IMG/VR virus record: IMGVR_UViG_3300025809_002164
Span: 62,001 to 126,000 of that record
DNA from: a virus
Reading direction: 5' to 3' (one strand)
Length of the DNA: 64,000 bases
A model generated the notes under the pieces. It ran no database searches. It was not told the DNA's origin and worked only from the letters and a program-made list of their open reading frames with translations. Made by a program: the position numbers and the translations under genes. Positions 8,731 to 64,000 of the stretch are shown here, piece by piece; the stretch's first letter is position 1; every line of letters starts with the position of its first letter.

Positions 8731-8740
8731 TTAAATAAAA

Positions 8741-8745
8741 TACAC
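8741..8745 (-). promoter_or_regulatory. GTGTA element before gmd
   Basis: On the minus strand GTGTATTTTATTTAA abuts the ATG at 8730, with the first G at -15. No Shine-Dalgarno sequence is present. Confidence 0.5.
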
Positions 8746-8768
8746 TTATTGTTGATATTATTTTCTAC

Positions 8769-9176: not shown

Positions 9177-11656
9177 TGGCAGGACTCGCAGGGTTCTCCA
9201 TTTTTCATAGATTCAATACTGCAGGCAGATGCAGGTTTTTGATCGGTTGATTTTTCGATTTTACTTGCGGCCCTATTCCTTAGGTAGTAAGTAGTTTTTA
9301 GACCAGACTCCCAGCATTTCATGTATATATCATTTAGATATTTAAGGGAGGTTGAGCTGTTGTACAAATTAAAACTTACAGCTTGATCTATCCATTTTTG
9401 CCTACGAGCATTTACTTCTACGAGTTTCATCATATCTCTATCAAATGCTGTTTTGTATTTATTTTTAATATCCTCAGGGATGAATTCATTTAACAATGAT
9501 AAGTCTCCGTCAGCGTCCTTAACCATATTAGATATTTCTGAATTCCATAACCCAAGTTCTTTCATGTCGTTTACAAAATGAGGGTTTGTTATATAAAAAT
9601 TACCGCTCTTATTCTCGTATACAAAAAGCACAGAGAAATTAGGCTCTATACTTTGCTCTACTCCGTTAATATATCCTATAGTTGCTGTGGGAGCAATAGC
9701 CATTACGTTAGAGTTCCTCATTCCGAATTCAGCAACATGAGCTCTGACTTTACCCCAGTCTTTAAGTGTTTGACCATGGCCAGTTAGAGGCTTGCCGGTA
9801 ACAGATGCTTTAGATACTTTTTGTTTACCTTTATAAACCATTAAGTTATTGTAGGAATCAATCGGAAGAATATTTTGACTCCAGAGTGACCCATCAAAAG
9901 TTTCGTAAGATCCTCTCTCTTCCGCCAATATTGAGCTTGCATAAATTGCTTCGCATGAGTAAAATTCATAAAACTTGTCGTTCCATTCAGCAGCTTCATC
10001 GCTGTCTATTATGATGTTTTGCTTGTGAAGTACATCATGCATTCCCATTATACCTAAACCTATAGGTCTATGCTTTAGGTTTGAATTATTAGATTCCCTG
10101 GTAGGATAATAATTTATATCTATTACATTATCTAGCATTCGAATCGCCGTGTGTATTGTATTTTTCAACCTATCATAATCTAATGTATGATTATTTTCAC
10201 CGTGAGATGAGGCCTCCTTCATGTGATTCAATAAATTAATAGAGCCTAAGTTGCAAACAGCTGTTTCTCCTATCTTGGTTTTTTCACCCTTGCTATATTC
10301 TGAGGGTTTGGTGTGTAGAGTTATTTCAGTGCATAAGTTAGAGCTAAGAACCTGACCTTCATGTTGATTTGTGTATCTAATATTACATGGATCTTTAAAT
10401 GTACACCAAGGGTGTGAGGTCTCAAACAAAACTTTGAGCATTTTTTTCCATAAATCTTTTGCCGCTATTTTTCTGAAATTTTTAATTAATCCTGCTTCAG
10501 CCGACTTGCACATTTCTGAGTAGTGCTTATCAAAGTCTTTACTAAACCTATTGTGTAGTGTCTTTCCGTCTTCTGTTTTAGTGTCTTTTGGGTCAAAGAA
10601 ATACCAATCATCTTCGCTCTGAACTCGCCTCATAAATTCATCGGGTATCCAGGCTGCGGTATTCATGTCGTGGCATCGAAGCCTTTCGTCTCCGGTGTTC
10701 CTCCTTAAGTTAAGGAAGTCTTCAAAATCTAAGTGCCATGGCTCTAAGTATGCACAACCAGCTCCAGGTCTTTTACCTCCTTGGTTGACGGCTACAAGTA
10801 AGTCGTTAAATATTTTAAGCCATGGAACTAACCCGCTAGAGATTCCGTTAGTTCCTTCAATGTGAGATCCTGTGGATCTGAAAGGGGTGACATCTAGGCC
10901 TAGACCTCCGGCAAATTTAGACTTCCTAGCTTCTTGCCATGCTCCGTCAAATATTCCATCTATACTATCATCAAAAGTGTTCAAATAGCAAGAACTTAAT
11001 TGGGAGTGTGTGGTTCCACTGTTAAATAATGTGGGTGTAGATGGAGTATAGAGTAATAAACTAATTAAGTCATAGAACTCTATAGCTTTTTCGTTTTTAT
11101 TTTCTTCGTTTATCGATAGGCCCATTGCTACCCTCATCCAAAAAGATTGAGGAGTTTCCATTACTTTGTTGTCCAGCCTAATAAAATATCTATCGTACAA
11201 TATTTGAGCTCCTAAATATTTTAAGTTCTTATCTCTAGTTATTCTTATAGATTCTGACAACATATTTAGGTCAAAGTCTAACAATTTAGGGTCAAGCCTG
11301 CCTTCTTTAACTAACTTTTTAGTATTTTGAATAAAGCTTTTTCTATATTGTAATCTAAATGTATCTGAGTCTACCCCTTCGTTGAATACTTCTTTATATA
11401 AATTGTTTAATAATAAACCTGCAGCCGCAAAAGAATAGTTTGGTTCTTTTTCGATTTTTTCTCTAGCTGATAATATTAAGGCTTGGTCAATTTCCCTAGT
11501 AGTTATCTTATCAAAGAGTTGAAGTTGGGCGTCAAGAACTATTTCACTAGCTGACACATCTTCTATGTTTTCGCAGGCTCTTAGTGAGCTTGCATTAATT
11601 TTATCCACATTAAATTCTTCTAATCTTCCATTTCTTTTCTTAACTTTAATTTGCAT
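9173..11656 (-). CDS. nrdA: ribonucleotide reductase large subunit, class I
   Basis: 827 residues. Order: ATP-cone domain (about 1-90, allosteric activity site), catalytic ten-stranded barrel, C-terminal redox tail. Active-site residues are present: C223 and C468 (redox pair), N440, C442 (thiyl radical) and E444 in SSNLCTEI, and the Y790-Y791 relay in KTTYYLR. The tail ends in CESC (C823, C826) for reduction by thioredoxin or glutaredoxin. It pairs with nrdB at 592-1605. A strong sigma-70-like promoter lies at 11713-11741 and the Nudix gene is coupled downstream. No intein or insertion is seen. Confidence 0.96.
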   Translation of the reverse strand: MQIKVKKRNGRLEEFNVDKINASSLRACENIEDVSASEIVLDAQLQLFDKITTREIDQALILSAREKIEKEPNYSFAAAGLLLNNLYKEVFNEGVDSDTFRLQYRKSFIQNTKKLVKEGRLDPKLLDFDLNMLSESIRITRDKNLKYLGAQILYDRYFIRLDNKVMETPQSFWMRVAMGLSINEENKNEKAIEFYDLISLLLYTPSTPTLFNSGTTHSQLSSCYLNTFDDSIDGIFDGAWQEARKSKFAGGLGLDVTPFRSTGSHIEGTNGISSGLVPWLKIFNDLLVAVNQGGKRPGAGCAYLEPWHLDFEDFLNLRRNTGDERLRCHDMNTAAWIPDEFMRRVQSEDDWYFFDPKDTKTEDGKTLHNRFSKDFDKHYSEMCKSAEAGLIKNFRKIAAKDLWKKMLKVLFETSHPWCTFKDPCNIRYTNQHEGQVLSSNLCTEITLHTKPSEYSKGEKTKIGETAVCNLGSINLLNHMKEASSHGENNHTLDYDRLKNTIHTAIRMLDNVIDINYYPTRESNNSNLKHRPIGLGIMGMHDVLHKQNIIIDSDEAAEWNDKFYEFYSCEAIYASSILAEERGSYETFDGSLWSQNILPIDSYNNLMVYKGKQKVSKASVTGKPLTGHGQTLKDWGKVRAHVAEFGMRNSNVMAIAPTATIGYINGVEQSIEPNFSVLFVYENKSGNFYITNPHFVNDMKELGLWNSEISNMVKDADGDLSLLNEFIPEDIKNKYKTAFDRDMMKLVEVNARRQKWIDQAVSFNLYNSSTSLKYLNDIYMKCWESGLKTTYYLRNRAASKIEKSTDQKPASACSIESMKNGEPCESCQ

Positions 11657-11712
11657 CGTTATATATTGTATGTTTTAGGGTATATTCTTTCCACTATAAG
11701 AAGGAAATTATT

Positions 11713-11741
11713 AATATAGCATAGAACTAGAATAACATCAA
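11713..11741 (-). promoter_or_regulatory. sigma-70-like promoter of nrdA
   Basis: On the minus strand TTGATG (11736-11741) is followed by 17 bases and TATATT (11713-11718). A TG one base before the -10 makes it an extended -10. The leader to the nrdA ATG is about 50 bases. This is the best promoter-like sequence in the 112-base gap, which holds no gene. Confidence 0.6.
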
Positions 11742-11768
11742 GGATAAAAGTCAATAGTTATTAACAAT

Positions 11769-12563
11769 TTATCTCATTGATGGAAGCATTTTACTATTAT
11801 TGTTGTGGTTATGGTGCGCTGGAGAACCCCATTTATTATTAAAGAAGGAATGAGCCATAGCCTCTTTTTTTGAACTTTCTGAATTTTGTTCAGAATTACT
11901 TCTAGTGGCGGCTCCGGCGAAATGATAAAAGTTACAGTTGTATGTCCTTTGCATTTTGAGCCCCCAGTATTCACACTTTAGAAAAAAGTCCCAGTCAACC
12001 ACGTGTGGGGAAGGGTAGAGTTCGTCCCACCCGCCTAGAGCTAAAAAGTCATGTTTATTCATCGCAAAAGGAAGTGTGGAACCTTCATCTGTGATTTTAT
12101 TTTCCCTTAGAAGTACTTCCTGCTCTTGAAACTCACCAATGTTGAATATTGCTGGGTCGCGTCCAAAATCTTTAATGATAAACTGAGGAAATATTGAGGG
12201 TTGGGGCTCAATTTGGTTCAAGCTTAAGACTGATTTTGGTTGCAGTTCTTGACTTATGACTGTATCCCAGTTTGACGGAAATATATTATCATCATTAACC
12301 ACCAATATGGTTTCGTGAGTTGAGTTATAAACTCCTAGGTTGGTGGCGACTGAAAGCCCTTGGTTCTTTTGTAAATTGAGTACTTTAAAATTATTTTCAA
12401 GCTCTTGATACTTATTAATTACTGATTTATTTAAGTCAAAAAAACCATCAGCCACAACTATGACTTCAAAGTTGTTTCTCGATGATGGATTTAAGTACAG
12501 GGACTTTATGCAAGCGTCTAAATGCCCTGGCTCTTGGTATGTTGGTATAATTACTGATATCAT
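11769..12563 (-). CDS. glycosyltransferase family 2
   Basis: 264 residues. A classic GT2 N-terminus (ISVIIPTYQEPGHL), the VVADG turn, KNQGLSVATNLG, the metal site in VVNDDNIF (D91-D92), and a GGWDELYPSPHVVDWDFFLK acceptor region. The last 20 residues are His/Asn-rich. It overlaps the upstream glycosyltransferase by four bases (ATGA), the start of a long run of coupled genes reaching 22147. It is predicted cytosolic with no membrane anchor. Sugar and acceptor unknown. Confidence 0.85.
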   Translation of the reverse strand: MISVIIPTYQEPGHLDACIKSLYLNPSSRNNFEVIVVADGFFDLNKSVINKYQELENNFKVLNLQKNQGLSVATNLGVYNSTHETILVVNDDNIFPSNWDTVISQELQPKSVLSLNQIEPQPSIFPQFIIKDFGRDPAIFNIGEFQEQEVLLRENKITDEGSTLPFAMNKHDFLALGGWDELYPSPHVVDWDFFLKCEYWGLKMQRTYNCNFYHFAGAATRSNSEQNSESSKKEAMAHSFFNNKWGSPAHHNHNNNSKMLPSMR

Positions 12564-13264
12564 ATTTTATTCCAATTTGTTAAAGGAGATAACCATTTGG
12601 TTTCTCCATGGGTTGAGTAACCTGGTAAGGGTGTAATTAATAACTCCTTATTATTGCCTAATTCTAGAAACATTTGAAAATCATTTGGGTGGGTTCCTGA
12701 TGTGTGTTTTCTTAAGATGGATTCACATCGTTTTAAGGTAGATACCTTAGCGGCAAAAGTCATGGTTGTACTATTAGTTATCTTCCAGTGGCAACTATTG
12801 GTTAGGTATACCTTGGTAGTTTCAGCCCCCCCATCGCAATATGGGTTGCCGCCTTGTGAGGGCTCTAAATATTTATCAGGATGATCATACAAAGAAACAA
12901 ATGATGCCCCTAGGGCAAACCCTTCTTCTAGGGCTTTTTGGGATTGAAATTTGTGTAGGTAGTCGTTTTCAATAAAATAAATAATTTCATCATCAGGAGA
13001 TGTAAGAGCTTCGTCTAAAGCTAAATTGAATGTTCCTGCCCCATGCCCTATAGACACTTCTTTTAGGAAGAAGGGAAGTACTTTAGCACCTTCCACTTCG
13101 TGTTTTACCATATCAAGAGTTTTAGTAGAACAATTATCTGCTATTATTGACCATTCTGTATTAGTGAATTCTTTGAGAGCATTTTTTAAACATTCTCCAT
13201 TATTAATATAGTCAGGTTTTACTTTCTTGTATCCAGCATCTGATATTCTATATATTATTTTCAT
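12560..13264 (-). CDS. glycosyltransferase-like protein, GT-A type
   Basis: 234 residues. It begins MKIIYRISDAGYKK, has a DNCS turn, a GAGTFNLALDEAL helix typical of GT2 enzymes, and an END motif at 99-101 (YFIENDYLH) in the DXD position. It overlaps both neighbours by four bases (ATGA), so it is part of the coupled sugar operon. The family is divergent and lacks a clear C-terminal catalytic motif. It could be a GT2 enzyme of unusual specificity. Confidence 0.65.
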   Translation of the reverse strand: MKIIYRISDAGYKKVKPDYINNGECLKNALKEFTNTEWSIIADNCSTKTLDMVKHEVEGAKVLPFFLKEVSIGHGAGTFNLALDEALTSPDDEIIYFIENDYLHKFQSQKALEEGFALGASFVSLYDHPDKYLEPSQGGNPYCDGGAETTKVYLTNSCHWKITNSTTMTFAAKVSTLKRCESILRKHTSGTHPNDFQMFLELGNNKELLITPLPGYSTHGETKWLSPLTNWNKI

Positions 13265-13848
13265 ACTCGCTCAATTATAGTGAAACCATTATTATTAGTA
13301 AATCTTTCTTTTAACTTCCAAGCATCCTTATTTTCATCTAAAAATTCAGTAACAGCATCCCATAGACCTTTATCCCAAACTAATTCATCTCCAAACCCAT
13401 TCTCTGATGTTGTAGGTTCACTGTGATGTTCATAGGAAGTGGTATCATGAAAACATATATATTTTTTTGCTTTGGGTGAGTGTTTTTCTAATTCAGCTTT
13501 TAATTGATTATAATGATGCCAGGTATCAATAAATAATAAATCAGTTTCTTCAATATCAATTTCAAGTACATTAGCTTCTACAAATTCAAAATTAAGTCCA
13601 TAAGCTTTAGCTGTTTCTTCTACTTCTTTTATATTTCCTCCCCATCTGGATGGGTTGTATAGATCGTAAGAAATAAGTTTAGTTTTTGGAGCTGATGCTA
13701 GCCATCCCCAAGTTGATAAAACACTTCTTACCCCCATTTCTGTAATATGATCACATTCTTGACCATACTTTAATATTGTTGGTATATGTTCATTTATATC
13801 AGAAGGGGTTTGATATAATTTATTTATTTTTTCTTCTAAGTCTATCAT
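13261..13848 (-). CDS. class I SAM-dependent methyltransferase (Methyltransf_24-like)
   Basis: 195 residues. The SAM loop is TEMGVRSVLSTW (motif I), followed by ISYDLYNP, FVEANVLEI and the characteristic LLFIDTWHHYNQL strand with YICFHDTT. This pattern is common in Methyltransf_24/CmcI-like enzymes linked to sugar O-methylation in capsule and LPS clusters. It overlaps the neighbours by ATGA. In this context O-methylation of a sugar is likely. It marks the right-to-left end of the more AT-rich part of the cassette. Confidence 0.8.
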   Translation of the reverse strand: MIDLEEKINKLYQTPSDINEHIPTILKYGQECDHITEMGVRSVLSTWGWLASAPKTKLISYDLYNPSRWGGNIKEVEETAKAYGLNFEFVEANVLEIDIEETDLLFIDTWHHYNQLKAELEKHSPKAKKYICFHDTTSYEHHSEPTTSENGFGDELVWDKGLWDAVTEFLDENKDAWKLKERFTNNNGFTIIERV

Positions 13849-14597
13849 AACATTTTATTTATTGATTTTTGCATTTTATTTTCATGGTTTCCTAATTTAT
13901 TTCTTCCTTGCTCTCCATTAATGTAAATATTGGGAAGATGATGTATTAAGTTATCTTTAAATTCACTTATACAAATCATTTTTTTCATTCCACAAAATTG
14001 ATATATGTCTGTATTAACTTTACATTTGACACTATATCCTGATTGTCCAAAAAACTGAGTAAAGTTATATTGTTCACATATTTTATGTAGTTGTTCTTTT
14101 GTAATAATAAAAGTTGCTTGGTGTAGGTTAGTAAAATGTGCGAATTTTTTACCCTCATATTCTTCTACACTATTATAATTCCAATCATAATGAGCGTGAT
14201 AAGCAGGGTAATATTTTCCTATTTCATTTTCTTCATATTGAATTAACCCAGCTATTCTATTCTTAGGTAAAATATTAGTATACTCTAGATATTTGTCAAT
14301 ATGATGTTCTTTAAATAGATGATCATTTTCACCAAATAAAAATACATCAAAATCATCTTTATGGTCCCATATAACTTGTTTACAAGTTAATGGTAATAAC
14401 TGATAATTATCCAATTCAATAACATTAACATGATCTATACCCAGTATATCAAGTTTTATATTACTATTTACAACAATAAAAACTTCATATTTTTGAAACG
14501 ATTTTAACTCACTAACTACTTGTTGGAGATATTGAAGTTGATCCTCTCCATAATTTACTAATACTGCTAATATATTTTGTTTTTCTTTACTTTCCAT
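13845..14597 (-). CDS. glycosyltransferase-like protein
   Basis: 250 residues with an N-terminal strand-loop (ILAVLVNYGEDQLQYL), the VIVNS-type second strand, and FLFGENDHLF at the DXD position (END). The middle is Tyr/His-rich (YPAYHAHYDWNYN). This layout resembles the 12560-13264 gene and suggests a related GT-A fold. It has no membrane segment. It overlaps the oxidoreductase gene upstream by 11 bases and the methyltransferase downstream by four. Confidence 0.6.
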   Translation of the reverse strand: MESKEKQNILAVLVNYGEDQLQYLQQVVSELKSFQKYEVFIVVNSNIKLDILGIDHVNVIELDNYQLLPLTCKQVIWDHKDDFDVFLFGENDHLFKEHHIDKYLEYTNILPKNRIAGLIQYEENEIGKYYPAYHAHYDWNYNSVEEYEGKKFAHFTNLHQATFIITKEQLHKICEQYNFTQFFGQSGYSVKCKVNTDIYQFCGMKKMICISEFKDNLIHHLPNIYINGEQGRNKLGNHENKMQKSINKML

Positions 14598-15597
14598 ATT
14601 GTATGTTAGACTTTTTATATATTTCTTCTATCAAAATAATGACATTATTTGTCTCTTCCAAGCTAAAATTATTTAAATTTCGATAAACTTCAGGATGGTT
14701 AGGACATGATCCTTGATATGAGCCATATGAATTAGGTTTATTTATCTTAGAATATTTTTTAGATATTTTATTATATTCATTTTTAAATCCTTGACTTAAA
14801 AAATTAGCTGATTCTATAATATTAAGAGCTTTCCCTCCAATTTTAATATAACCATTAGAACCCATTAAAGTTATAGAACTTTCTATGTTGTGGGGTTCTG
14901 ATGCTATTGTGGATTCAATAGTACCCCCAAATTTACCATAATCAACTAGAGAATAAACTGTATCTTCAATTATAGCATCCTTATGTTTAGTAGTATAGGT
15001 TTTTGTTGATAATACTTCTTTAGGATTTCCAATTAAATATTGTAAGACATCTAAATAGTGGATTGCAGTTTCGTATAATATACCACCTCCTACATCCGGT
15101 TGTCCTCTCCATCCTGAAAAGTATTCTAAAGGTCTTTGCCATCTTTGTGTAAATGAAAATCCTCTAATTTCTCCTAATAATTTCTCTTTTAAAACTTCTT
15201 TCACTAAACTAACTGTTGGGTTTAATCTAACTTGTAAAACACAATATACTTTTTGTTTATTTTTATCAGCACAATCTTGAATTAACTTTATATCTTGAAT
15301 ATTAAATGATACTGGTTTTTCTATTAAAACATCACAATCTTTCTCTAATGAAAAAATAGCTTGCTCCTTATGTAATGAATTTGGGGTTGCTATTACAATA
15401 AAATTTAAATCCTCAACAGCTATCATATCCTTATAATCCGTATAAGAAGGTACTTTATATCTCTTTCCTAAGCTTTTTATTAATGATGGTTGAATATCAC
15501 ATACTGAAGATAATTCAAAATCTGAGTTAGCCTCTATTGCTTCTATATGTCTAGGGAATATCCCACCACACCCTATTATTCCTACTTTATGTTTCAT
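14587..15597 (-). CDS. Gfo/Idh/MocA-family sugar oxidoreductase
   Basis: 336 residues from the ATG at 15597, chosen because it forms an ATGA overlap with the preceding SDR gene; a TTG 21 bases upstream would add seven residues. The N-terminal Rossmann domain has GIIGCGGIF, VCDI and ATPNSLH; the EKP motif with the catalytic Lys is near residue 94; GGGILYETAIHYLD and the C-terminal beta-sheet domain follow. Enzymes of this type (WlbA/WbpB-like) oxidise the 3-position of NDP-sugars before amination. This fits the DegT aminotransferase in the same operon. Confidence 0.85.
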   Translation of the reverse strand: MKHKVGIIGCGGIFPRHIEAIEANSDFELSSVCDIQPSLIKSLGKRYKVPSYTDYKDMIAVEDLNFIVIATPNSLHKEQAIFSLEKDCDVLIEKPVSFNIQDIKLIQDCADKNKQKVYCVLQVRLNPTVSLVKEVLKEKLLGEIRGFSFTQRWQRPLEYFSGWRGQPDVGGGILYETAIHYLDVLQYLIGNPKEVLSTKTYTTKHKDAIIEDTVYSLVDYGKFGGTIESTIASEPHNIESSITLMGSNGYIKIGGKALNIIESANFLSQGFKNEYNKISKKYSKINKPNSYGSYQGSCPNHPEVYRNLNNFSLEETNNVIILIEEIYKKSNIQYGK

Positions 15598-16571
15598 TTT
15601 AATTTGTTTTGATACCAACTAATAGTTTCTCCTAAACCATATGTAAAGTCAGTAAGTTGATAATTAATTAGTGATTTTATTTTTTTATTACTGGCTATAT
15701 GACATTCTACATCTGCTTTTCTAGTCGGTTTATAAACTATATCCTTTACATTATAATCCATCCCTCTCATAATATTACAGATATCTTCTATAACTTCTTT
15801 AATAGTAATTTGACCATCTGTAGATATATTTACTGATTCCTTTGGTTTTAATTTATTATAAACCTTTATAATAGCATCTACAGTATCATGTACATAAATA
15901 AAATCTCTACTTTGTAATCCATCTCCCCAAATTTCTGGGGGTTTATTATTAATTAGGTTAAACATAGTAACAGGAATTACAGCAGCTAAAGGTGGTTTTG
16001 CATTTTGTCTAGGACCATAATTATTAAATGGTCTAACTATAAAGGCATCCAAATCAAAACTATCTACCCAAGATTCTAATGCTTTATCTGCACCTACCTT
16101 CCCAGCAGCATATGTTGTTTTTGGATTTAAGGGATGGTTTTCATCCATAGGCTCATAAACAGCACTACCAAATACTTCTGATGTGGAGAAATGTACTAAT
16201 GTTTTAAATTTATTTTTACGTTGAAGTTCTAATAAATTAACTATAATATTAGTGTTACAATGAAAACCATTTGCCGGGTTTAAAAAAGTATAATTAATTG
16301 GTTTTGTAGCACAATTAAAAACTATATCAATGTTATGCTTATTAAATATATATTCTAAAGAAGTATATATCTCACAATCATCTTTATAAAGAATAACTCC
16401 CTGTTTAAAAGCATCTTTTAAATTATCTTCATTCCCAAGAAACATATTATCTATAACAATTACTTGTTTAGCTCCTTCTAATAATAGTCTATCGACTAAA
16501 TGGCTTCCTATAAATCCAGCTCCACCAGTAACTAGAATTGTACTATTTTTAATTTTTGGTCTATTTCCCAT
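15594..16571 (-). CDS. extended SDR, NDP-sugar dehydratase/epimerase
   Basis: 325 residues. NAD-binding GGAGFIG at 16-22, catalytic STSEVFG (S129-E132), YAAGK (Y154, K158), and RPFNNYGPRQN. The S-E pair in place of the D-E pair of dTDP-glucose dehydratases points to the LegB-like dehydratase or UDP-glucuronate-decarboxylase-like branches. The product would be a keto-sugar for the DegT aminotransferase. It overlaps neighbours at both ends. The substrate (GDP-, UDP- or dTDP-sugar) cannot be fixed from sequence. Confidence 0.85.
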   Translation of the reverse strand: MGNRPKIKNSTILVTGGAGFIGSHLVDRLLLEGAKQVIVIDNMFLGNEDNLKDAFKQGVILYKDDCEIYTSLEYIFNKHNIDIVFNCATKPINYTFLNPANGFHCNTNIIVNLLELQRKNKFKTLVHFSTSEVFGSAVYEPMDENHPLNPKTTYAAGKVGADKALESWVDSFDLDAFIVRPFNNYGPRQNAKPPLAAVIPVTMFNLINNKPPEIWGDGLQSRDFIYVHDTVDAIIKVYNKLKPKESVNISTDGQITIKEVIEDICNIMRGMDYNVKDIVYKPTRKADVECHIASNKKIKSLINYQLTDFTYGLGETISWYQNKLK

Positions 16572-17253
16572 TTTTATTTTTATATTCTATAAATTTTTGG
16601 TGTAATGTTTTTTCTATGTCTTCAGGAACAGATTTATAGTAAGTACCTTCCCCTAAAATTTGAGTAGGTATATTTTCTTTAAGTGATGTTATAGAGTCTA
16701 CCATTAGTTTTTGTTCTAGATTTTGAATTCTAATGTTTAAGTCAATTAAGGTATCATCTTTATAGACTTTAATTGTGGATTTCGTAATAACTTTCCCCCT
16801 ATCAATTGATTTATCGATTAAATGTGTTGTTACTCCTTGAGATATATTATCTAAAACCGCCCATTTAATGTTATCTAAACCTCTATTTTCAGGTAATAAT
16901 CCGGGATGCATATTAAGTACCCCTATATTAAAACTTTCAAAGGCAATAGGTTTTAATATTCTAGCTCCTAATATCACACCTAAATCTAAATTATACTCTT
17001 TTACTAATTTTTGGGTTTCTTCAGAATTATGGACAACTACTTTATAATCAATTCCATGCTGTTCTGCTATTATTTTAGGATGGGATAAATATAGATCTTT
17101 AGGTGTTATTCTTATTTTTGATTTATAAAAATTTAATTCAACTGGATTAGCCGCAAGTATTACTTTAGGTTTATTACCTGATATTATTAAATTATTTATT
17201 CCTTCTTGGGTTTTCCAATGTGAAAAATTATAAGCAAAAACTCCTATATTCAT
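16561..17253 (-). CDS. sugar N-formyltransferase
   Basis: 230 residues in the formyl-transferase fold that uses 10-formyl-tetrahydrofolate. The catalytic triad is visible: N114 and H116 in LNMHPGLLPENRG and D151 in IDRGKVI, with spacing close to that of the ArnA formyltransferase domain. It is shorter than methionyl-tRNA formyltransferase and lacks the C-terminal tRNA domain, so a sugar amine is the likely acceptor. It sits two genes after the DegT aminotransferase that would make that amine. It also overlaps the SDR gene by 11 bases. Confidence 0.85.
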   Translation of the reverse strand: MNIGVFAYNFSHWKTQEGINNLIISGNKPKVILAANPVELNFYKSKIRITPKDLYLSHPKIIAEQHGIDYKVVVHNSEETQKLVKEYNLDLGVILGARILKPIAFESFNIGVLNMHPGLLPENRGLDNIKWAVLDNISQGVTTHLIDKSIDRGKVITKSTIKVYKDDTLIDLNIRIQNLEQKLMVDSITSLKENIPTQILGEGTYYKSVPEDIEKTLHQKFIEYKNKNGK

Positions 17254-17777
17254 TATTTTTTTATTTTATTATAATATTTTTGACCTTTTTTAATATTTTT
17301 ATTAACAAAAGTTAAAGCTCCAATTACGGATTGATCTTCAATATTACATCCCATTTGAACTACACTATGAGGTCCTATATAAACACCATTACCTATTTTA
17401 GTTGAATTGTGTTCTATTTCTTCTTTACCTAAAGAAGTTGACCATTTAACAGTATGATGAGAGTAAATATGAACTCCTGCAGATATAGAACAATAATCTC
17501 CTATTTCTAATCCACCACTTCCATCTAGTACTACATTAGGTCCAATCCAACAATTTTTACCTACTTTAACATCTCCCAAAATTAAAACATTATCATAAAC
17601 TGATGTACCTTCCCCAAATCCTTCTTTTTTCCCTCTTTCCCACCTATCATTTAAGTAATCTCCTAAAGAAAGACTCCTATTATACTTGAATTTTTTGTTT
17701 AAGTATAAACTGTTATAAAATTTTTTATATATTTTTAAGAATAAATTTTTCAATTTTTTTAAATATTTTTTTAACAT
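17253..17777 (-). CDS. hexapeptide-repeat acyltransferase (left-handed beta-helix)
   Basis: 174 residues. After a Lys/Leu/Phe-rich amphipathic N-terminus (1-30), residues about 68-165 carry hexapeptide turns (ILGDVKVGKNCWIG, GLEIGDYCSISAG, TKIGNGVYIG, CNIEDQSVIG), with the catalytic His in HIYSHH. Trimeric enzymes of this kind O- or N-acetylate sugars. The N-terminal codons overlap the aminotransferase gene by 53 bases and there is no other Met in the first 60 residues. Together with the formyltransferase it gives two acylation options in one pathway. Confidence 0.85.
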   Translation of the reverse strand: MLKKYLKKLKNLFLKIYKKFYNSLYLNKKFKYNRSLSLGDYLNDRWERGKKEGFGEGTSVYDNVLILGDVKVGKNCWIGPNVVLDGSGGLEIGDYCSISAGVHIYSHHTVKWSTSLGKEEIEHNSTKIGNGVYIGPHSVVQMGCNIEDQSVIGALTFVNKNIKKGQKYYNKIKK

Positions 17778-18816
17778 TTACTCCTTGATAACATGGTAAT
17801 GTTATCGTATTTTCTTCTAAAAACTTAGCATTAGGTTGAACCTTATTATATTTAGTTTTATAATATGTTGTGTTACTTAAACAATAAGTCCCTAATGTTG
17901 ATTCTATCCCACAAGATTTTAAAAATAAAATTAATTCATCTCTTTTTATATCTTTAGGGACCTGGAAAATTACAGATTGAATATTATGAAAAGCCCCAGA
18001 GCTTAAAGTTTGAGGTGTAAAACCTAAAGGTGTTAATAAATTAATATATTTGTTTTTTATTTTATTTCTAGAAAATATAACTGAATTAAGTTTTTTTAAA
18101 CTTTCAATTCCCATTACAGCTTGGAATTCAGTCATTCTATAATTGTATCCAGGTTGAATAAAGTCTAATTTATTATTATTGTAAATAGCTCCATGATTTA
18201 ATTTTACCTTAAGTAAATCGGCATATGCTTTATTATTTGTAGTAATTGCACCTCCTTCTCCGGTTGTTAATAATTTTCTTGGATGAAAACTAAAACAGGT
18301 TAAGTCTGCTATAGAACCATTTTTTTTATCAAATTCACTACTACCTAGGGCACATGCTGCATCTTCTATAAGAGGGAGATTATGATCTTGGCATATATTT
18401 TTTATTGAATGGATATTAGAAGGATTACCTAAAGCATCTACAAACATTACTGCTTTAGATTTTGGGGTAATTTTTGAAATTAAATCCTTAGCATCCATAT
18501 TATATGTTTCAAGATTAACATCAACAAATACAGGAACAGCACCCATATTTTCTATTACATTAGCACTTGCGGGGTATGAAAAATCAGAAACAAGAACTTC
18601 ATCACCTGATTGAATATTAATAATTTCTAAAGATAAACTTAAAGCAGTTGTAGCTGATGTTGTTAAAAAAGAATAATCACATTCTATATAATTTTTTAAA
18701 TCATTTTGGAATTGTTCTACATATTCCCCTTTAGTAAAGAACCCTGTTTTAAATATTTTTCTAAACTTCTTATTAATATTTCTATATTTTAAATATGGTT
18801 TTATTATTCTAATCAT
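17725..18816 (-). CDS. DegT/DnrJ/EryC1/StrS sugar aminotransferase
   Basis: 363 residues. PLP enzyme that aminates a keto-sugar using glutamate. Visible: TTSATTALSLSLE, the DAACALGS Asp that holds the pyridine nitrogen, and the Schiff-base Lys K181 in SFHPRKLLTTGEGG; GYNYRMTEFQAVMG follows. Length and motifs are standard. It sits between the acyltransferase and a glycosyltransferase-like gene. With the SDR, formyltransferase and acyltransferase it forms a compact route to an N-acylated amino-sugar. Confidence 0.92.
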   Translation of the reverse strand: MIRIIKPYLKYRNINKKFRKIFKTGFFTKGEYVEQFQNDLKNYIECDYSFLTTSATTALSLSLEIINIQSGDEVLVSDFSYPASANVIENMGAVPVFVDVNLETYNMDAKDLISKITPKSKAVMFVDALGNPSNIHSIKNICQDHNLPLIEDAACALGSSEFDKKNGSIADLTCFSFHPRKLLTTGEGGAITTNNKAYADLLKVKLNHGAIYNNNKLDFIQPGYNYRMTEFQAVMGIESLKKLNSVIFSRNKIKNKYINLLTPLGFTPQTLSSGAFHNIQSVIFQVPKDIKRDELILFLKSCGIESTLGTYCLSNTTYYKTKYNKVQPNAKFLEENTITLPCYQGVNVKKIFKKIEKFILKNI

Positions 18817-55985: not shown

Positions 55986-58900
55986 ATGTCACTAGGATTA
56001 AGAACTCATGTAATAGATTTAGAACAAAACATTAATCGTATTGTTCGAAAAGTAAATGCAGGTGGAGGTATAGTAGTTAAAGTGCGAGCGAGCGACTTTA
56101 CTCAACCACTGGGCAGAATGTCGGCGAAAGCTAATGAATTCACAAAGTCTCTTGAAGCTTCCAATGCTCGAGTGATAGCCTTCGGAGCATCTGCGGCAAT
56201 TATAGGGGGAGTAACCTTAGGATTCACCCAACTAGTTGTTCAGGCCACAAAAGTAGAAAAGATCTTAACCGACATTAATGTAGTTCTTAATACTTCCACA
56301 CAGAATTTAGAAAAGTTCGGAAACAGCTTGTTTAAGGTTGCTCGAAATACATCCCAAACTCTAGAGGTCGCAGCAGAAGCAGCTCTGGAGTTTTCCAGAC
56401 AAGGATTAAGTATGGAGGAGACTCTAAAGAGAACGAATGATGCCCTAATCTTGACTAGGCTCACTAGTTTAAAAGCTGCCGATTCAGTAAAAGGTCTAAC
56501 TGCTGCGGTTAACGGTTTCGCTGATGCAGGCATGACTACAGCCATGGTTATCAATAAATTATCCGCAGTAGATATTAAATTTGCCGTAAGTACAGACGAC
56601 TTAATTAACGCTCTATCTAGAGCTGGAGCTGTAGCTCAAGATGCGGGGGTTAGTTTTGATCAATTAATGGGAGCAGTAACTTCAGCTCAGCAGATTACAG
56701 CTCGAGGAGGAGCCGTAATAGGTAATAGTTTTAAGACTATCTTTACAAGAGTACAAAGAGGATCAACATTACAATCCTTAGAGGATTTAGGTATTGCGGT
56801 CAGAGATATAAGAGGAAACACACTTCCTGCTATGACGGTCCTTCAGAATTTATCATCAACTTACGAAAAGTTAGGAGCAACAACTAAAGCTGCGGTAGCC
56901 GAGCAAGTGGGTGGAGTTTTTCAAATCAACATACTTAAAGCGGCAATTAAAGACTTAAATGCCGAAACTTCAATATATAGTCAGGCGACCAAAGCATCAT
57001 CGTCAGCGACAAATGAAGCTTATACAAAAAATGCACAACTACAAAAAACTCTATCATCAATAGCCAATCAAACATTAACTACTGTTAGGGAATTAACAGC
57101 CAACCTAGGAAGCTTGACTATAGCTCCAGCCTTACAAGATTTCCTAAGCTCAGCTAACGAAGTTTTGGGGTCATTCAATAAGCTCTTTGGGGACACAGAG
57201 GGCGAATCTATTGGGGGTGACTTCGCTAAAGGTTTTGCAAGAGGTCTGGGCTCAGTACTCATGGGCCCCGGAATGATGGTTGCAGTTTTAGTGTTTGCAA
57301 AATTATTTAGTCAAGCTTTCAAATTTGCCAAAAGCTCAGTTAAAGATTTATTGCAGATTCAAAGCATTAAAGAAAAAGAAAAAGCAATACAAGAGTCTAT
57401 CGTTGATGCTATGATCAAGAATGTAGCCTTAAGTAAAGAGCTAGTAAAAATAGACGGAGACCAAGTTAAGCAAGAGCAAATAGTATTAGCTTTACTAAAA
57501 GAACAGACCGCACACATAGAACAGCAAAGAAGGATTGCTTCAGATATATCTCCGGCACTTAGAAGAGCTGGAGTTCAACCTAACTTGATAGTCTCAAAAG
57601 GTTCAAAACATGGATCTGACGGCCTTATTCCAAATTACTCAAACACAACACCCCTTGAGAGAGAAAGAGAAAGAAGCGGAGCACAGAAGGGTGGGTACAC
57701 AGCTGGAGCCATAGCTAAAATGCATGTGCCCAAATTAGGTGAAGTTGTCTACAACAAAAGAGAATCAGTTAGGAAATTCCCAGGAATGCAGCAACCCGCA
57801 ATTATTCCACCAATCAGCAGTAAGGCTGGTAAAAAATACCAAGACAATTTTTCCGAGAGGCATGGCTTTGATCCATACGGCAGTTCTAATAACTCAACCT
57901 ATAATGGCGGCTTAATTCCTAATTTCGCATCCAATACAACTGAGAAGTCTGCAATTCGAGCAATCCTAGATACACTAAAGAAAAGAAAGGTAAAAGTCTT
58001 ACCCAACGACCCGAAGCTCTCTTTCGCTGCAAATAGATACATGGAGGCGACCAAAGACAGGGAGTATCCTGGAGGTTCTGTTAATTTTGGCAAACATAAA
58101 ATAAGCATGAATGAAATCACCCTAGCCTTAAAGAAGCATGGTAATTATATGGGTGACGAAGATTTCTATGGAAATAAAGCTGGAGGCCTTATTCCTAACT
58201 TCGCACTTGGAGCCTCGCAACTCGCAGGTACAAATATTCTGAAATTGCCAAAAGCGAAAATGGCAACGCAAACAACTAAATCAGACTTTAGAGGAAATAG
58301 AGTTAAGGGTTGGAAAAATTTAGAAGCTCCACTTGACAGCATACAAAAAAGTGCCGCTAGTTATGCAGACGAGTTTAATGTTTTAAAAGGTCTAGGTATT
58401 AATGTGCTACAAAGAAAAATGTTCTTCACAAACAAAGAAGACGGAGGGATACGAAAATCTATAAATACTACTGATAGAAAAATGGCTAAATCCCGAGGAT
58501 TTCAGAAAAACAATAGAGACAACATAGCCGGATCTTCATACGAATCAGGACTTTACAAAAATCATTTAAAAGATAAAGGCTATAATGAAACTTGGACTGG
58601 AGGCTACACCCCTAAAGGTTTCCAGAAAGGCACAGGGGACCCTCAATCTACGGTTGATTTTTTTAAGGCTGGAAGGCTTCCAATAGAAGCTAAGTATGGG
58701 AAATTTACTCAAGCGAACTTAATAGCAAAAAGCATAAGGCTGTCTAGCGATAGATACATAGAAGACTTTTTATCAAGCAGGGGCGAGGGCGATATTGCTA
58801 ACAATATGGCTAATAAAAAATTTCAAGATGCATCAAGCACTCTTTCTAGCCTAGGTCATAAAAACGTAGATAAATCTATGGTGAAAAAATTCGGACTATC

Positions 58901-61900
58901 TTCAGGATTAGTACCTAATTTTATGTCTATTGGTTTAGGGCCTCATATGAACAGTAGCGATTGGCTAACCTCAAGTCTTAACCTAACCCGACAAAACTGG
59001 GACCAGGGCCAAAACCTAAAAGATGGTAGCTTTAGTGACTGGGTAGATTTCATAACAAAAGATCGCCAAATAGGCGTCCCGCTTCATTACAGAGACCGGC
59101 CGAGCAAAATAGACGAGATAGCTCAAAATAAATCGAACTCGAAAAGAGCTCGTCAGGCCAAAATACTCTACAATGACTACCTTAAAAATTTCACGAACAC
59201 AAACACTAAGAAAATCAAGATGTCTAAATTTGGAAATGTTCTTGAAATGGCTTTGGCTCAAAATTTCGGCAAAAAACCTACGTCAGCTTCATACCCAATG
59301 GACTTCACACATAATCCAATACATAAGCTTGACGGGAACCCTATAGTGAGTAGACAAACTTTAGGTCTCAACTCGCAGGTGGGAGATGCCGTTGTGACTT
59401 CTTCGGGACACGAAAAAAATAAGTTTTTCTCAAAAATTTTAGCTCACCAAATTAAATCAGGGTCAGCCGTCCTTGGAAAAAGAGGCAAATTTCCAGCAAG
59501 AATTAAAAACACAGGAGGATACAATGACTTAATCGGACACTCAGGCAAGACGAAACTTGATAAAACTGTTACAAACCATACAGCTACAGGAGCACAGTTA
59601 ACCAAAAAAAACGGCATCTTAGGGAAGTACTTAAATCCTAAGCAAAGTTATAAGTTAGATAAGTACAAAAAAGACTTCTGGAGTTACGACGAACTAGGCA
59701 TAAAGGCAGGTCAGGCTGTATCCAATTCGCAAGGTTTTATTCCAAATTATCTAAACACTGAAGAATTCGGCGACACCAGCACTAGCGCTGCCCAATTTAA
59801 TCAAAATAACGGACTCGACCTACAAACAGCTCTCTCAGGAGGCAAGGGTTTCAAGCTTACAAAATCTAACTTTCAAAAAGTAAGGCAATTCCTTAATAGT
59901 GCAGAATTCAGAAGTCTTCCTGCAGGAATTAAAACTCAATTAACAAACAAGCTCAGGATTCAATCAAAATTTCTAAAAATGGGAGATGTAACTAGACCTT
60001 ACTTAAAAGGCAAAACATCTTTTCCAGGTCGAATCGCAGTCTCTGGAGGTCTCATTCCGAATTTCTCCAACCCCTTGGCTGAAGCTATAGGTAGAGAAAA
60101 AGCAGCACTTTCAAGCCAGGGATCTACAGCTAAAGTCTATGTAGATCAGGATCAGAGACTTAAAGACACACTAAACCCTATGGGGCTAATGGTAGCAAAC
60201 AGAAGAGATGAGCCAATATCTGGTGCTCAAGGAGTTAATCGAGCAATTAATCAAGGGCTTAATCCGAAAACTCACGGCAGTTCAAATAATTCTACATATG
60301 ATTCAGGGCTAATTCCTAATTTCAACAGCCCAGTAGTAACGGGTACAGGCGGCAGTGTGTTCGCACCAGGTATTAAGGAATTAGATAAAGCAGCTAAGGA
60401 TACTGCTTCCAAAGTTAAAGATCACGGTAAATCTAGCAAAGAAGCATCAGGATCAGGAATGGATATGATGGGAGCAATGTTTGCTCTGACTAGTGTCTCA
60501 TATGCAGTTGAGGGAGCTTTAGGAGATGTCGACAGCTCCGCCGGAGCATTGGTTAAAACTCTCAATGCGGGAATAATGGGAGCTTCTCAGGGAGTAATGG
60601 TCTGGCAAGGCCTAAGTTCTGTAGGGGATAGCCTTATTAAGAAAAACACAAAGATGGGAAAAGCTATGGGTGTCGGAACAAAAATTCTCGGAGGTCTTGG
60701 CGCAGCTGTCGGAGTCCTAGTTCCAGTATTTCAAGCTTTAGGGGAAAATACCAGCATGCTGGATGGTCCGTTTGAAACTTTAGCTAAAAGTGTAAAAGAA
60801 ACATCGAAATCTATAGGGGCTCTAGGTAATGCCATAACTGCCCACACAGATCTAGAGTCTACTCGTAGTGAAATTTCACAATTAAATAATTCTCAAGATA
60901 AAAATACTTACGACGGAAGGATGAAACTATTAACCCTGCAGACGAAAGAAGCCAAAAATAACTCTGATTTAATTAAATCTGCTGGAGAACTTGGTAAAGC
61001 TTTAAACCTAACAGGAGCGGATCTTATGACAATGACATCTGGAACTGCTTTGGGCATGGAAAAACTACAAGAAAACATGTTAAAATACCAACAAGCACTT
61101 GCCGTAGAAACCGCGATGATGCAATTTACTAAAGGGCTAGGTAGTGGTGGGTTTGCTGGAATGTTCAAACAAGAAGGTACTGATTATGAAAGAAGGGCCG
61201 GCCAAGTGGGTGTAGCTCAGCAAATAGCTAGTCAATCAGAAAATCCCAAACAGTTAGACGAACAACTAAAAGTGTTTATGAAGGCCTTTTCTACCCTCAA
61301 AGAAGACTCCCAGCCCCTAAGAGACTCGGTCAGTACCTACCAGAATGTGTTGGCAGCAGGTAATAAAACAGGATTTGGAAGGTCCGCCGGATCACTTGCT
61401 ATGATGGCGAACAGTGCTAAGAATGAGCTTGGGATGGGAGTTGACGTGAGCAAGATTACTTCCACCTTTGAGAGTTCCGTCTCTAAGCTTCCTGTAGCCT
61501 ATCAAACTTTAGCATCCCAAATCATAAAGAACGCGCAATCAATGGAAATAGGGGATATTGAATCGCTCCTTAAAGGAGTTGAGAGTAATGCGAGGCTTTT
61601 AGTTAAAGATTCTAAAAAGTCAGCAGAACAACAAGTAATTAATTATAAATACCTAAGAGAGACTACTAGACTTAATCGAGAACTGGCCAACCGAACACAA
61701 CTATCATTAAATCAGGACAAAATAAACCTATCCTTAGGAAAAGAAAAGCAGGGAGTTCTAAAGTCAGCTCGAGCACACAATATAAAATACCTTGCAGCCC
61801 TGGGTGCGACAACTAAAGCCGCCACGCTTGAATCAGAGATGCTCGAAAAAAGCAAACAAATTGATCAAGATTTAATGAACAAAAAAACGGAAATAAATAA

Positions 61901-64000
61901 TAAATACAAAGCCGAAGGAATCAAGTATATTGACACATTATTTAACGATAAAAAAAATAGCCTTATCGATCCAGTATTAACTCAGAGCCAGGGGGGCAAG
62001 GATTCGAGTGGAAAGAGCCTTTCTGCTGAAAAAACATGGGAAAAATCTCAAAAAGAGCTACAGTCACGAATGATAGCAGCATCCTTCAATAACAAGGGCA
62101 TTGAAGAGGGCGGCACACAAGATCCAAAACTTCTAAAACTCAAGAAAGATTTAGGCCTTGCCCAGAACCAAGAACGAGTAAGCTTTCTATTTAAAGAGTA
62201 CATCCATTCCTTGAAGGATTCAGTAAAACAGCAAGAGGCCCTAAATAACTTTCAAAAAGCAAAGATAATACCAGAGCAGATAGACCTGGCAACGTTCTTC
62301 AGTCATTCCGTAAATCTTAAGAACCAAGAAATCAAGACGGAAGAAGACTCCGCTAAGGTTAAGAAAATCAACCTGGATGTAGTGAGAGCACAGCTCAATA
62401 TGGAAAAAGGAACTCTATCTCATGCCCAGAAAAGGCTTACAGATATCAAAGCTATCCCTTACCACCAATTAGACGAAGTAACAAAGGAACAAATAGACAC
62501 CAATAAAACTGTAGCTCAGGCTGACTACGAGATCCTTAGAAATAAAGAAATATATCTTTCCTTCGGAGAAGGTCTTGCATCCCTACAATCAGAGCAGCTT
62601 GAGGTTGAAAGGTTAAGAGTAAAAAAAGAATCGGATTCGCTCAATACTCAATCTAAAAGGCTAGATGCAGAAGAAAAGCTTAGAAAATCGACGGATGATT
62701 ATAAAAACATAATAAGGCTAAAGGTAGAAAATGAGCTTAAGACTTTAAGGAATTCTACTGATGATGATATTACGACTTTAAAAGAGGAGAAAAAACAGGG
62801 TGCCTTCGGAAAGCGAACTGAAGCCGGGAACAGTCAGTTGGTTAGGGACGAAGAAAGGGCGATGCTCAATCACATAGAAGCCTTAAAGCAAGGCACTTAT
62901 TCTCTCGGAGCTCTGCACAGCATGGCTGAGAGTACCAGATCTTTCGAAAAAGCCCTAATAGAAGCTAAAACAAAACTCGAGAACGGAGGCGACTTTCTAG
63001 AGGGTCAGCAAGGAGTAATTCTGGATACAGCTCACCAAAAAGGGGGCATAGAAAAACTTAAAGGAGAAAAATCAGTATTCAACGACAGAGGAGCAACAGT
63101 AAGAGTTGCAGAAACAGACCTGAAGATAGCTCAAGCGCACAAGGAGTTAAATTTAACAATGGGTGAAGGGAGTTTATTTGCGGACTCAATGAGAGTAAAA
63201 ATTGCTGAAGCAAATGTAGAAATGTCCAGGTTTGGCGAAACAATGGCCAACACGGCATTTGATGCGACCAAGGAAGGCTTTAAGGGGCTTATTCAAGACA
63301 TGGGAGACGGAACTAAATCTCTAGGTGACGTAGCCGCTAATTTCTTTGGAACTATAGTAGACAGAATGAATGAGAAGTTGATAGATAGAGCTGCAGGTCA
63401 ATTAACTGCAGGCCTAATGGAAGCCGCAGGCTTCAATCAAGGTGGCCATGTGGGATTCAATCAGGGAGGTCATGTCTCTAGGTATTCATCTGGAGGCACA
63501 ACTCGCCAAGTTCCAGCCATGTTGACCTCTGGAGAATATGTTGTACAAAAAAGAATAGTCGACAGGCTTGGAACTAACGAACTTAATAAAATTAACGACT
63601 CTGGATCCCTCGAGGAACTATATGATAAACCAAATAATGAGTCTTTTTCATTATTAAATGAAGGAGGCATAGCAAGCCCTCCAATCATAAAACTAAAAGA
63701 GGGAGGAGTTGCTAAAAATTATCTTTCAGGAATAGTAGGAACAATTAATAAATTCATGGGGGGCATAGTAAAAATGGCAGGGGGCGGAATACTATCCTCA
63801 AGCCCAGACGATAGTGCAGGTATGAAAATGGCAAAAGGGGCGGGCTACTTAGCAGGCTCAAGCCTCCATGCATATCAAAACAGAGGAGAAGGCAACCAAG
63901 GCCCTAGCGCTCCTAAAGCTCCGACCGCGCTCAACACACACTCCTCCTTGAATATTGACCCAACAGGAAACAGGATGAGTGCTAAATATAAAGCTAATGA
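55986..64000 (+). CDS. tail tape-measure protein with cargo-like middle region, 3' end beyond window
   Basis: A single frame stays open from ATG 55986 to the right edge (at least 2671 residues). Residues 1-300 match the phage tail tape-measure domain (LEFSRQGLSMEETLK, AGVSFDQLMGAVTSAQQIT, RGGAVIGNSFKTIFTRVQRG), and a hydrophobic stretch follows near 420-440. The middle, about 545-1450, holds seven GLIPNF-type motifs and a PD-(D/E)XK-like signature. Residues 1490-1600 are Gly/Ala/Met-rich hydrophobic. Then long coiled coils to about 2450 and a typical TMP C-terminal region (GGHVSRY ... VPAMLTSGEYVVQKR). It sets tail length and is ejected into the host with DNA. Confidence 0.92.
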   Translation, partial: MSLGLRTHVIDLEQNINRIVRKVNAGGGIVVKVRASDFTQPLGRMSAKANEFTKSLEASNARVIAFGASAAIIGGVTLGFTQLVVQATKVEKILTDINVVLNTSTQNLEKFGNSLFKVARNTSQTLEVAAEAALEFSRQGLSMEETLKRTNDALILTRLTSLKAADSVKGLTAAVNGFADAGMTTAMVINKLSAVDIKFAVSTDDLINALSRAGAVAQDAGVSFDQLMGAVTSAQQITARGGAVIGNSFKTIFTRVQRGSTLQSLEDLGIAVRDIRGNTLPAMTVLQNLSSTYEKLGATTKAAVAEQVGGVFQINILKAAIKDLNAETSIYSQATKASSSATNEAYTKNAQLQKTLSSIANQTLTTVRELTANLGSLTIAPALQDFLSSANEVLGSFNKLFGDTEGESIGGDFAKGFARGLGSVLMGPGMMVAVLVFAKLFSQAFKFAKSSVKDLLQIQSIKEKEKAIQESIVDAMIKNVALSKELVKIDGDQVKQEQIVLALLKEQTAHIEQQRRIASDISPALRRAGVQPNLIVSKGSKHGSDGLIPNYSNTTPLERERERSGAQKGGYTAGAIAKMHVPKLGEVVYNKRESVRKFPGMQQPAIIPPISSKAGKKYQDNFSERHGFDPYGSSNNSTYNGGLIPNFASNTTEKSAIRAILDTLKKRKVKVLPNDPKLSFAANRYMEATKDREYPGGSVNFGKHKISMNEITLALKKHGNYMGDEDFYGNKAGGLIPNFALGASQLAGTNILKLPKAKMATQTTKSDFRGNRVKGWKNLEAPLDSIQKSAASYADEFNVLKGLGINVLQRKMFFTNKEDGGIRKSINTTDRKMAKSRGFQKNNRDNIAGSSYESGLYKNHLKDKGYNETWTGGYTPKGFQKGTGDPQSTVDFFKAGRLPIEAKYGKFTQANLIAKSIRLSSDRYIEDFLSSRGEGDIANNMANKKFQDASSTLSSLGHKNVDKSMVKKFGLSSGLVPNFMSIGLGPHMNSSDWLTSSLNLTRQNWDQGQNLKDGSFSDWVDFITKDRQIGVPLHYRDRPSKIDEIAQNKSNSKRARQAKILYNDYLKNFTNTNTKKIKMSKFGNVLEMALAQNFGKKPTSASYPMDFTHNPIHKLDGNPIVSRQTLGLNSQVGDAVVTSSGHEKNKFFSKILAHQIKSGSAVLGKRGKFPARIKNTGGYNDLIGHSGKTKLDKTVTNHTATGAQLTKKNGILGKYLNPKQSYKLDKYKKDFWSYDELGIKAGQAVSNSQGFIPNYLNTEEFGDTSTSAAQFNQNNGLDLQTALSGGKGFKLTKSNFQKVRQFLNSAEFRSLPAGIKTQLTNKLRIQSKFLKMGDVTRPYLKGKTSFPGRIAVSGGLIPNFSNPLAEAIGREKAALSSQGSTAKVYVDQDQRLKDTLNPMGLMVANRRDEPISGAQGVNRAINQGLNPKTHGSSNNSTYDSGLIPNFNSPVVTGTGGSVFAPGIKELDKAAKDTASKVKDHGKSSKEASGSGMDMMGAMFALTSVSYAVEGALGDVDSSAGALVKTLNAGIMGASQGVMVWQGLSSVGDSLIKKNTKMGKAMGVGTKILGGLGAAVGVLVPVFQALGENTSMLDGPFETLAKSVKETSKSIGALGNAITAHTDLESTRSEISQLNNSQDKNTYDGRMKLLTLQTKEAKNNSDLIKSAGELGKALNLTGADLMTMTSGTALGMEKLQENMLKYQQALAVETAMMQFTKGLGSGGFAGMFKQEGTDYERRAGQVGVAQQIASQSENPKQLDEQLKVFMKAFSTLKEDSQPLRDSVSTYQNVLAAGNKTGFGRSAGSLAMMANSAKNELGMGVDVSKITSTFESSVSKLPVAYQTLASQIIKNAQSMEIGDIESLLKGVESNARLLVKDSKKSAEQQVINYKYLRETTRLNRELANRTQLSLNQDKINLSLGKEKQGVLKSARAHNIKYLAALGATTKAATLESEMLEKSKQIDQDLMNKKTEINNKYKAEGIKYIDTLFNDKKNSLIDPVLTQSQGGKDSSGKSLSAEKTWEKSQKELQSRMIAASFNNKGIEEGGTQDPKLLKLKKDLGLAQNQERVSFLFKEYIHSLKDSVKQQEALNNFQKAKIIPEQIDLATFFSHSVNLKNQEIKTEEDSAKVKKINLDVVRAQLNMEKGTLSHAQKRLTDIKAIPYHQLDEVTKEQIDTNKTVAQADYEILRNKEIYLSFGEGLASLQSEQLEVERLRVKKESDSLNTQSKRLDAEEKLRKSTDDYKNIIRLKVENELKTLRNSTDDDITTLKEEKKQGAFGKRTEAGNSQLVRDEERAMLNHIEALKQGTYSLGALHSMAESTRSFEKALIEAKTKLENGGDFLEGQQGVILDTAHQKGGIEKLKGEKSVFNDRGATVRVAETDLKIAQAHKELNLTMGEGSLFADSMRVKIAEANVEMSRFGETMANTAFDATKEGFKGLIQDMGDGTKSLGDVAANFFGTIVDRMNEKLIDRAAGQLTAGLMEAAGFNQGGHVGFNQGGHVSRYSSGGTTRQVPAMLTSGEYVVQKRIVDRLGTNELNKINDSGSLEELYDKPNNESFSLLNEGGIASPPIIKLKEGGVAKNYLSGIVGTINKFMGGIVKMAGGGILSSSPDDSAGMKMAKGAGYLAGSSLHAYQNRGEGNQGPSAPKAPTALNTHSSLNIDPTGNRMSAKYKAN
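57618..60329 (+). other. seven dispersed GLIPNF-type motifs in the tape measure
   Basis: Motif starts (nucleotide): DGLIPNYSN 57618, GGLIPNFAS 57906, GGLIPNFAL 58182, SGLVPNFMS 58902, QGFIPNYLN 59730, GGLIPNFSN 60045, SGLIPNFNS 60303. Consensus (G/S)G(L/F)(I/V)PN(F/Y). Intervals of about 260-830 bases hold dissimilar sequences. Copies 2 and 7 share the preceding GSSNNSTY. They may be domain junctions, processing sites or binding motifs. Confidence 0.85.
58539..58694 (+). other. PD-(D/E)XK-like nuclease signature within the tape measure
   Basis: In the segment between the third and fourth GLIPNF motifs: a Glu in a helix (SSYESGLYKNHL, E853), an Asp in a strand (STVDFF, D891), then E901-x-K903 (LPIEAKYGK) followed by a helix. 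Order and spacing match the core of PD-(D/E)XK nucleases. This is a motif reading, not a structural proof. Confidence 0.5.

Follow-up and report, generated by a model that had tools for sequence, protein, structure and literature searches.

Results

Tape measure gene and its internal modules

The window analyzed here is a stretch of 64,000 nucleotides (positions 62,001 to 126,000 of the IMG/VR virus record IMGVR_UViG_3300025809_002164), whose plus strand carries a long open reading frame (ORF) for a tail tape measure protein (TMP). An earlier note, made from the letters of the sequence, had placed a PD-(D/E)XK-like nuclease inside this ORF and a possible relative directly behind it; these two segments are called module 1 and module 2 below. 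By its family domain and PHROG profile the ORF is a TMP: PhageMin_Tail (PF10145) matches amino acids (aa) 119-310 in Pfam with E=2e-20, and the N-terminal part has hits to several tape-measure families of PHROG, the best at 8e-43. The ORF is open at the window end and complete in the 146-kb virus record, where it encodes 2,984 aa and ends with a stop codon. The protein contains the GxIPNF/Y motif seven times, beginning at aa 546, 642, 734, 974, 1250, 1355 and 1441; among all frames of the window the GxIPNF motif occurs in the TMP frame only. The features that concern module 1 are as follows.

55986..63998, plus strand: tail tape measure protein, the first 2,671 of 2,984 aa inside the window and the remainder beyond
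58185..58202, plus strand: GLIPNF motif 3, left boundary of module 1
58203..58904, plus strand: module 1, probable PD-(D/E)XK-type nuclease domain, aa 740-973 (alignment A5, AlphaFold model, hhalign, substitution rates of relatives)
58542..58544, plus strand: E853, helix glutamate, at least 90% conserved in A5, in predicted helix 101-124 of the module
58656..58658, plus strand: D891, putative metal-binding aspartate, invariant in 21/21
58686..58694, plus strand: E901-A-K903, (D/E)XK motif, E and K invariant in 21/21, in predicted strand 160-163 of the module
58728..58739, plus strand: K915-S-I-R918, helix residues after ExK, K and R invariant in 21/21
58905..58922, plus strand: GLVPNF motif 4, boundary between modules 1 and 2

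Conservation of module 1

The residues E853, D891, E901 and K903 stand where the earlier note had put them, between motifs 3 and 4, in SSYESGLY...STVDFFKAGRLPIEAKYGK. Their pattern alone is not evidence of a nuclease, because its loose form E-x(25-60)-D-x(6-20)-[DE]-x-K is still present in 61% of the copies when the segment is shuffled. Relatives were gathered starting from the segment, by profile iteration over tape-measure ORFs and by a collection search that used a close alignment. In the resulting window-led alignment A5 (21 sequences, the relatives being 15-56% identical to the window sequence) the sole invariant columns are D891, E901, K903, K915 and R918, with E853 in the class of at least 90% conservation. 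Loss of the D, E and K residues in homologues, which the earlier note had named as an outcome that would refute its proposal, was not found in these sequences. The ratio of non-synonymous to synonymous substitutions (dN/dS) in close pairs of relatives is 0.14-0.22, so module 1 is maintained as protein. When the domain alone was used as the query, with the motif left out of the search, all 15 of the 15 loci found were TMP ORFs carrying 5-10 GxIPNF motifs.

Profile and structure comparisons of module 1

The family profile of module 1 (f1) was compared by hhalign with alignments of Mrr_cat, UPF0102, PDDEXK_1 and, as a negative control, NUDIX, all built in this analysis from loci. The scores of 13.8 (Mrr_cat), 15.4 (UPF0102) and 16.0 (PDDEXK_1) exceed the maxima reached by column shuffles of f1, 60 for each family (11.0, 11.5 and 12.6, respectively), while the NUDIX score of 8.7 was reached by 8/60 shuffles. 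With A5, shuffles reached the real score in 0/60 (Mrr_cat), 1/60 (UPF0102), 0/60 (PDDEXK_1) and 21/60 (NUDIX) cases. The catalytic residues are in register: A5 aligned with Mrr_cat places E853 on FE, D891 on D and E901-A-K903 on Q-A-K of Mrr, and f1 aligned with UPF0102 places D891 and ExK on the D and ExK of that family. AlphaFold gave a confident model of module 1 (predicted local distance difference test, pLDDT, 89; predicted template modeling score, pTM, 0.85), and the elements follow in the order helix (E853), strands, D891, strand (E901, K903), helix (K915).

Several results weigh against a PD-(D/E)XK nuclease. The smaller A5 alignment gives a weaker excess over shuffles than f1 (the 1/60 for UPF0102), the hhalign comparison is limited to three target families and one negative family, and the hhalign probabilities are small in absolute terms, at about 1% or below. 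No fourth core strand can be clearly made out in the model behind the ExK helix. It has no Foldseek match at E≤0.001 in PDB and the viral library, and VIA-align gave Z of at most 2.3 and no relative. A Pfam scan finds no domain in the module 1 segment, and a profile search of PDB sequences returned nothing for module 1 or for module 2. As to the low hhalign values, known relatives score no better against each other (Mrr_cat with PDDEXK_1 12.0, UPF0102 with PDDEXK_1 12.8), and the missing Foldseek or VIA-align relative is not counted against the PD-(D/E)XK family. Two weak hits were set aside as noise, one being PF21111 (CDI_toxin_EC869_like, restriction-endonuclease-like) in one module member with E=0.031, among scattered weak Pfam hits, and the other PADLOC PD-Lambda-5_A in two module members with E=0.0046.

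It is quite unlikely that module 1 is some other enzyme or metal-binding fold which conserves E...D...E-x-K by chance. Such a fold would agree with a model that matches no known structural fold, but neither the catalytic register of the hhalign alignments nor the helix-strand-strand order of the model would be expected from it. Membership of module 1 in the PD-(D/E)XK superfamily is likely on these sequence comparisons. The nuclease assignment of the earlier note is thus backed by the invariant D, E and K, by low dN/dS and by profile similarity to three families, whereas its fold found no library match; the confident model shows the order helix (E), strands, D, strand (ExK), helix, with no clear fourth core strand behind it, and the alpha-beta-beta-beta-alpha-beta core is not proven. 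We consider it probable that module 1 belongs to the metal-dependent nuclease domains of PD-(D/E)XK type and forms one cassette of a modular cargo array in the TMP, its metal-dependent nuclease activity being putative.

Module 2 as a divergent variant

Module 2 follows directly after motif 4.

58923..59732, plus strand: module 2, variant nuclease-like domain, with E1087, D1106, D1134, H1142, K1150 and D1230 invariant
59733..59750, plus strand: GFIPNY motif 5, right boundary of module 2

Among the closest relatives of module 2, which make up rows 1-11 of alignment A6, the residues G1083, E1087, D1106, D1134, H1142, K1150 and D1230 do not vary. E1087 and D1134, singled out by the earlier note, are present and invariant in all 11 sequences; D1106, H1142, K1150 and D1230 are invariant residues beyond those it named. 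E-x-K is absent, as had been observed, and the site reads D1134-A-V. The helix lysine K1150 is kept, and the ExK-bearing modules of the wider family have the same lysine. The suggestion of "an inactive or divergent relative" is better put as a divergent, conserved variant. A rearranged active site seems likelier than simple decay, and module 2 need not be dead. Against a rearranged site stands the fast evolution of seg2-type pairs, with dN/dS of 0.67-1.2, a value that recombination may inflate. These seg2-type modules belong to the TMPs L131, L132, L133 and L135; dN/dS for the TMP N-terminus is 0.01 (L131 versus L133), and we read the difference as fast diversification or recombination. The profile of the wider family (A3) showed no significant similarity to known nucleases by hhalign, and the AlphaFold model of module 2 was unusable (pLDDT 47). 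A functional Q-x-K at aa 1154-1156 was also considered and dropped, the closest relative, L126, reading M-A-K there.

Tape measures with GxIPNF motifs as a family

GGLIPNFA-like coding DNA was found in viral contigs in at least 119 stretches, and a second pattern added more. At least 132 tape-measure ORFs, nearly all from uncultivated phages, have repeated G-[FLY]-[IV]-P-N-F motifs; the 132 ORFs analyzed are those with three or more motifs, and a few of them lie in genome contigs. These ORFs hold 611 motifs (consensus [AS]-[GS]-G-[FLY]-[IV]-P-N-F-A) as against 1 in shuffled copies, a count in which about one motif per locus reflects selection, since most loci were picked for the motif. Many members have in common the block enclosed by motifs 1 and 2 and the one enclosed by motifs 6 and 7, and the content in between is variable.

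57639..57908, plus strand: conserved framework block, motifs 1-2, about aa 552-641, matched by phmmer in dozens of further TMP loci
60066..60305, plus strand: conserved framework block, motifs 6-7, about aa 1361-1440, matched by phmmer in over 60 further TMP loci

Both blocks flank the cargo region and are kept across dozens of otherwise variable TMPs. There are 320 internal modules with a length of 90 aa or more. The module-1 family is matched by 33 of them and the module-2 superfamily by 83; nuclease-type modules of one or both kinds are present in 99 of the 132 TMP ORFs. Searched by tblastn against cultured phages, module 1, the two framework blocks and two further modules gave no match, and in the library of papers searched there was no paper joining IPNF with tape measure and no report of such arrays. 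Two GxIPNF TMPs, L150 and L143, are located on contigs binned in a Halobacteriovorax metagenome-assembled genome; the L150 contig PBIO01000004.1 and the viral contig IMGVR_UViG_2788500220_000008 are both 71,679 bp long, a possible hint at the host.

The cargo span, which ranges from 321 to 2,759 aa between TMPs, bears on the idea that module 1 is a structural or DNA-binding spacer with a nuclease-like fold and no activity. TMPs must fill the length of the tail, and ExK is absent from module 2, as a spacer would allow; such a range is nevertheless unlike a ruler, and what stays invariant in module 1 is just the set of acidic residues and lysines that makes up an active site, so that a spacer is highly improbable.

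Exchange of cassettes and other kinds of modules

Two pairs of closely related TMPs differ by whole modules. On either side of one slot L125 and L126 agree to 99.7-99.9%, at the protein as well as the DNA level, and they have different modules, both nuclease-like, inside it; the DNA identity stops at or beside the motif on each side of the slot. L132 and L133, whose DNA is 95.6-96.8% identical, differ by an additional module of 152 aa in L132, which has a G[FL]VPNFA motif on each side. The extra module (about aa 1352-1503 of the TMP) reads as a HAD phosphatase by the motifs DFDET, LTAR and DD, and its relative in L102 matches a polynucleotide kinase PHROG with E=7e-4. TMPs that are otherwise about 95-99.9% identical thus acquire or exchange whole modules at the motif boundaries.

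The clean gain and replacement at motif boundaries, together with the dominance of nucleases, would also suit selfish, homing-like nuclease cassettes that cut TMP alleles without them and spread in frame, with recombination taking place at the repeats that code for GxIPNF; boundaries of genetic exchange between phages are known to carry nuclease genes (PMC10448857). This explanation is very unlikely, since apparently non-nuclease cassettes fill the same slots and the L125/L126 slot holds two different nuclease-like modules, not a filled versus an empty site.

The other modules include a GNAT match above the Pfam cut-off and, in one cargo region, an SNase match of 1.4e-5. A further SNase-like module (L187:9909-10439) has a Pfam SNase match below the cut-off (E=0.014) and matches the 2,317-position PHROG 8809 at 1.8e-4. 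Some modules look like ADP-ribosyltransferase (ART), P-loop and protein-kinase-like domains, recognized mainly by eye from motifs. Thus L128:9615-10271 reads like an ART (LYRG...SFSTS), to which Pfam gives no support, and L093:1093-1674, L014:6433-7419 and L129:10538-11308 resemble protein-kinase-like domains, with no match in a Pfam scan of L093 and L014.

This variety has to be set against the proposal that the cassette serves assembly or acts on DNA of the phage itself, for instance by trimming or resolving ends at entry or packaging, and not on host or competitor nucleic acid. A routine step of that kind predicts what is seen in nuclease-type modules being by far the commonest cargo, and the low dN/dS of the seg1-type module fits it as well. 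It does not go well with modules that resemble GNAT, SNase, HAD phosphatase and ART, nor with their being swapped, gained and lost between near-identical phages, unlike a core assembly step, and we regard it as unlikely.

Other regions of the window

Positions 31221-53858 hold a run of long minus-strand ORFs of about 195-1,180 aa, several of which have domains in common, those of PHROGs 15511 and 5353 with unknown function, and possibly encode tail or adhesin proteins. Positions 2503-18816 encode glycosyltransferases, a DegT/DnrJ/EryC1 aminotransferase, a GFO/IDH/MocA oxidoreductase and the large subunit of ribonucleotide reductase; this region is a sugar-modification cluster in the phage.

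Discussion

The earlier note saw one domain; the evidence now points to a family-wide cassette system. On balance we favor the view, by a little better than even chances, that a widespread class of uncultivated phages has made the TMP a cassette rack, filled mostly with nucleases and also with phosphatase-, ART-, kinase- and acetyltransferase-like modules, which are swapped whole at GxIPNF motifs and delivered with the DNA as an evolving effector set. We infer virion packaging and host injection of this cargo from TMP identity only, and the ejection of module 1 and its attack on host or competitor nucleic acid, as proposed in the earlier note, are reached by inference only.

TMPs lie in the tail tube before injection, and a folded nuclease hardly fits the tail lumen alongside several TMP copies, so the cargo is probably unfolded or extended in the tail. 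The TMP copies packed in the tube would accordingly carry cargo that is unfolded or loosely folded, and hence inactive. The TMP would leave the tail before the DNA or together with it; the cassette would then fold in the host and cut or nick nucleic acid, which may aid early takeover, counter-defence or the exclusion of resident DNA. Module 2 would act as a sister cassette with a rearranged active site, in which E, D, D, H and a helix K replace ExK. In lambda and its relatives TMPs contact the inner membrane during injection (PMC13190303).

If this is true, TMPs are carriers of exchangeable cargo besides being rulers and DNA conduits, and phages could re-arm through one cassette swap while keeping the tail. 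It would partly explain why large TMPs are so long and so variable, provide a further source of early-infection effectors and counter-defences that current databases leave unlabelled, and make the motif-bounded TMP cargo a natural system for studying the passage of enzymes through a phage tail.

With the PD-(D/E)XK superfamily module 1 shares the order of helix Glu, Asp and (D/E)-x-K, in register with Mrr_cat and UPF0102. It differs in having no Pfam family, no structural match and the extra invariant K915 and R918, and the array also contains a subfamily without ExK, with an invariant H and a helix K. Type VI secretion likewise has PD-(D/E)xK effectors, PoNe among them, with a DNase domain that a phage-tail-like machine delivers into bacteria (PMC6688995); they are secreted antibacterial effectors. 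An enzymatic function inside a TMP is known from the peptidoglycan hydrolase motif of TM4, which helps infection across the cell wall (PMC1796659), whereas the modules described here are of nuclease type and are swapped. TMP-related proteins also serve as delivered effectors of contractile injection systems; these belong to phage-derived bacterial particles (PMC11126660, PMC13277306), while here the TMP is that of a phage.

A near parallel in concept is offered by the polyvalent proteins that phages and conjugative elements encode (Iyer et al. 2017, PMC5512222), which are likewise large, virion-associated and multidomain, with variable enzymatic domains, and are predicted to be injected with the DNA for conflict and takeover. 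The GxIPNF TMPs resemble them as phage multidomain proteins with variable enzymatic domains, seen in the variety of modules and in their swaps. Polyvalent proteins are described as packaged in the capsid head, and the term "tape measure" is absent from that paper; here the array is in the tail TMP and is bounded by GxIPNF motifs. Injected multidomain effectors are a known concept, and what would be new here is their location in the TMP with motif-bounded swapping.

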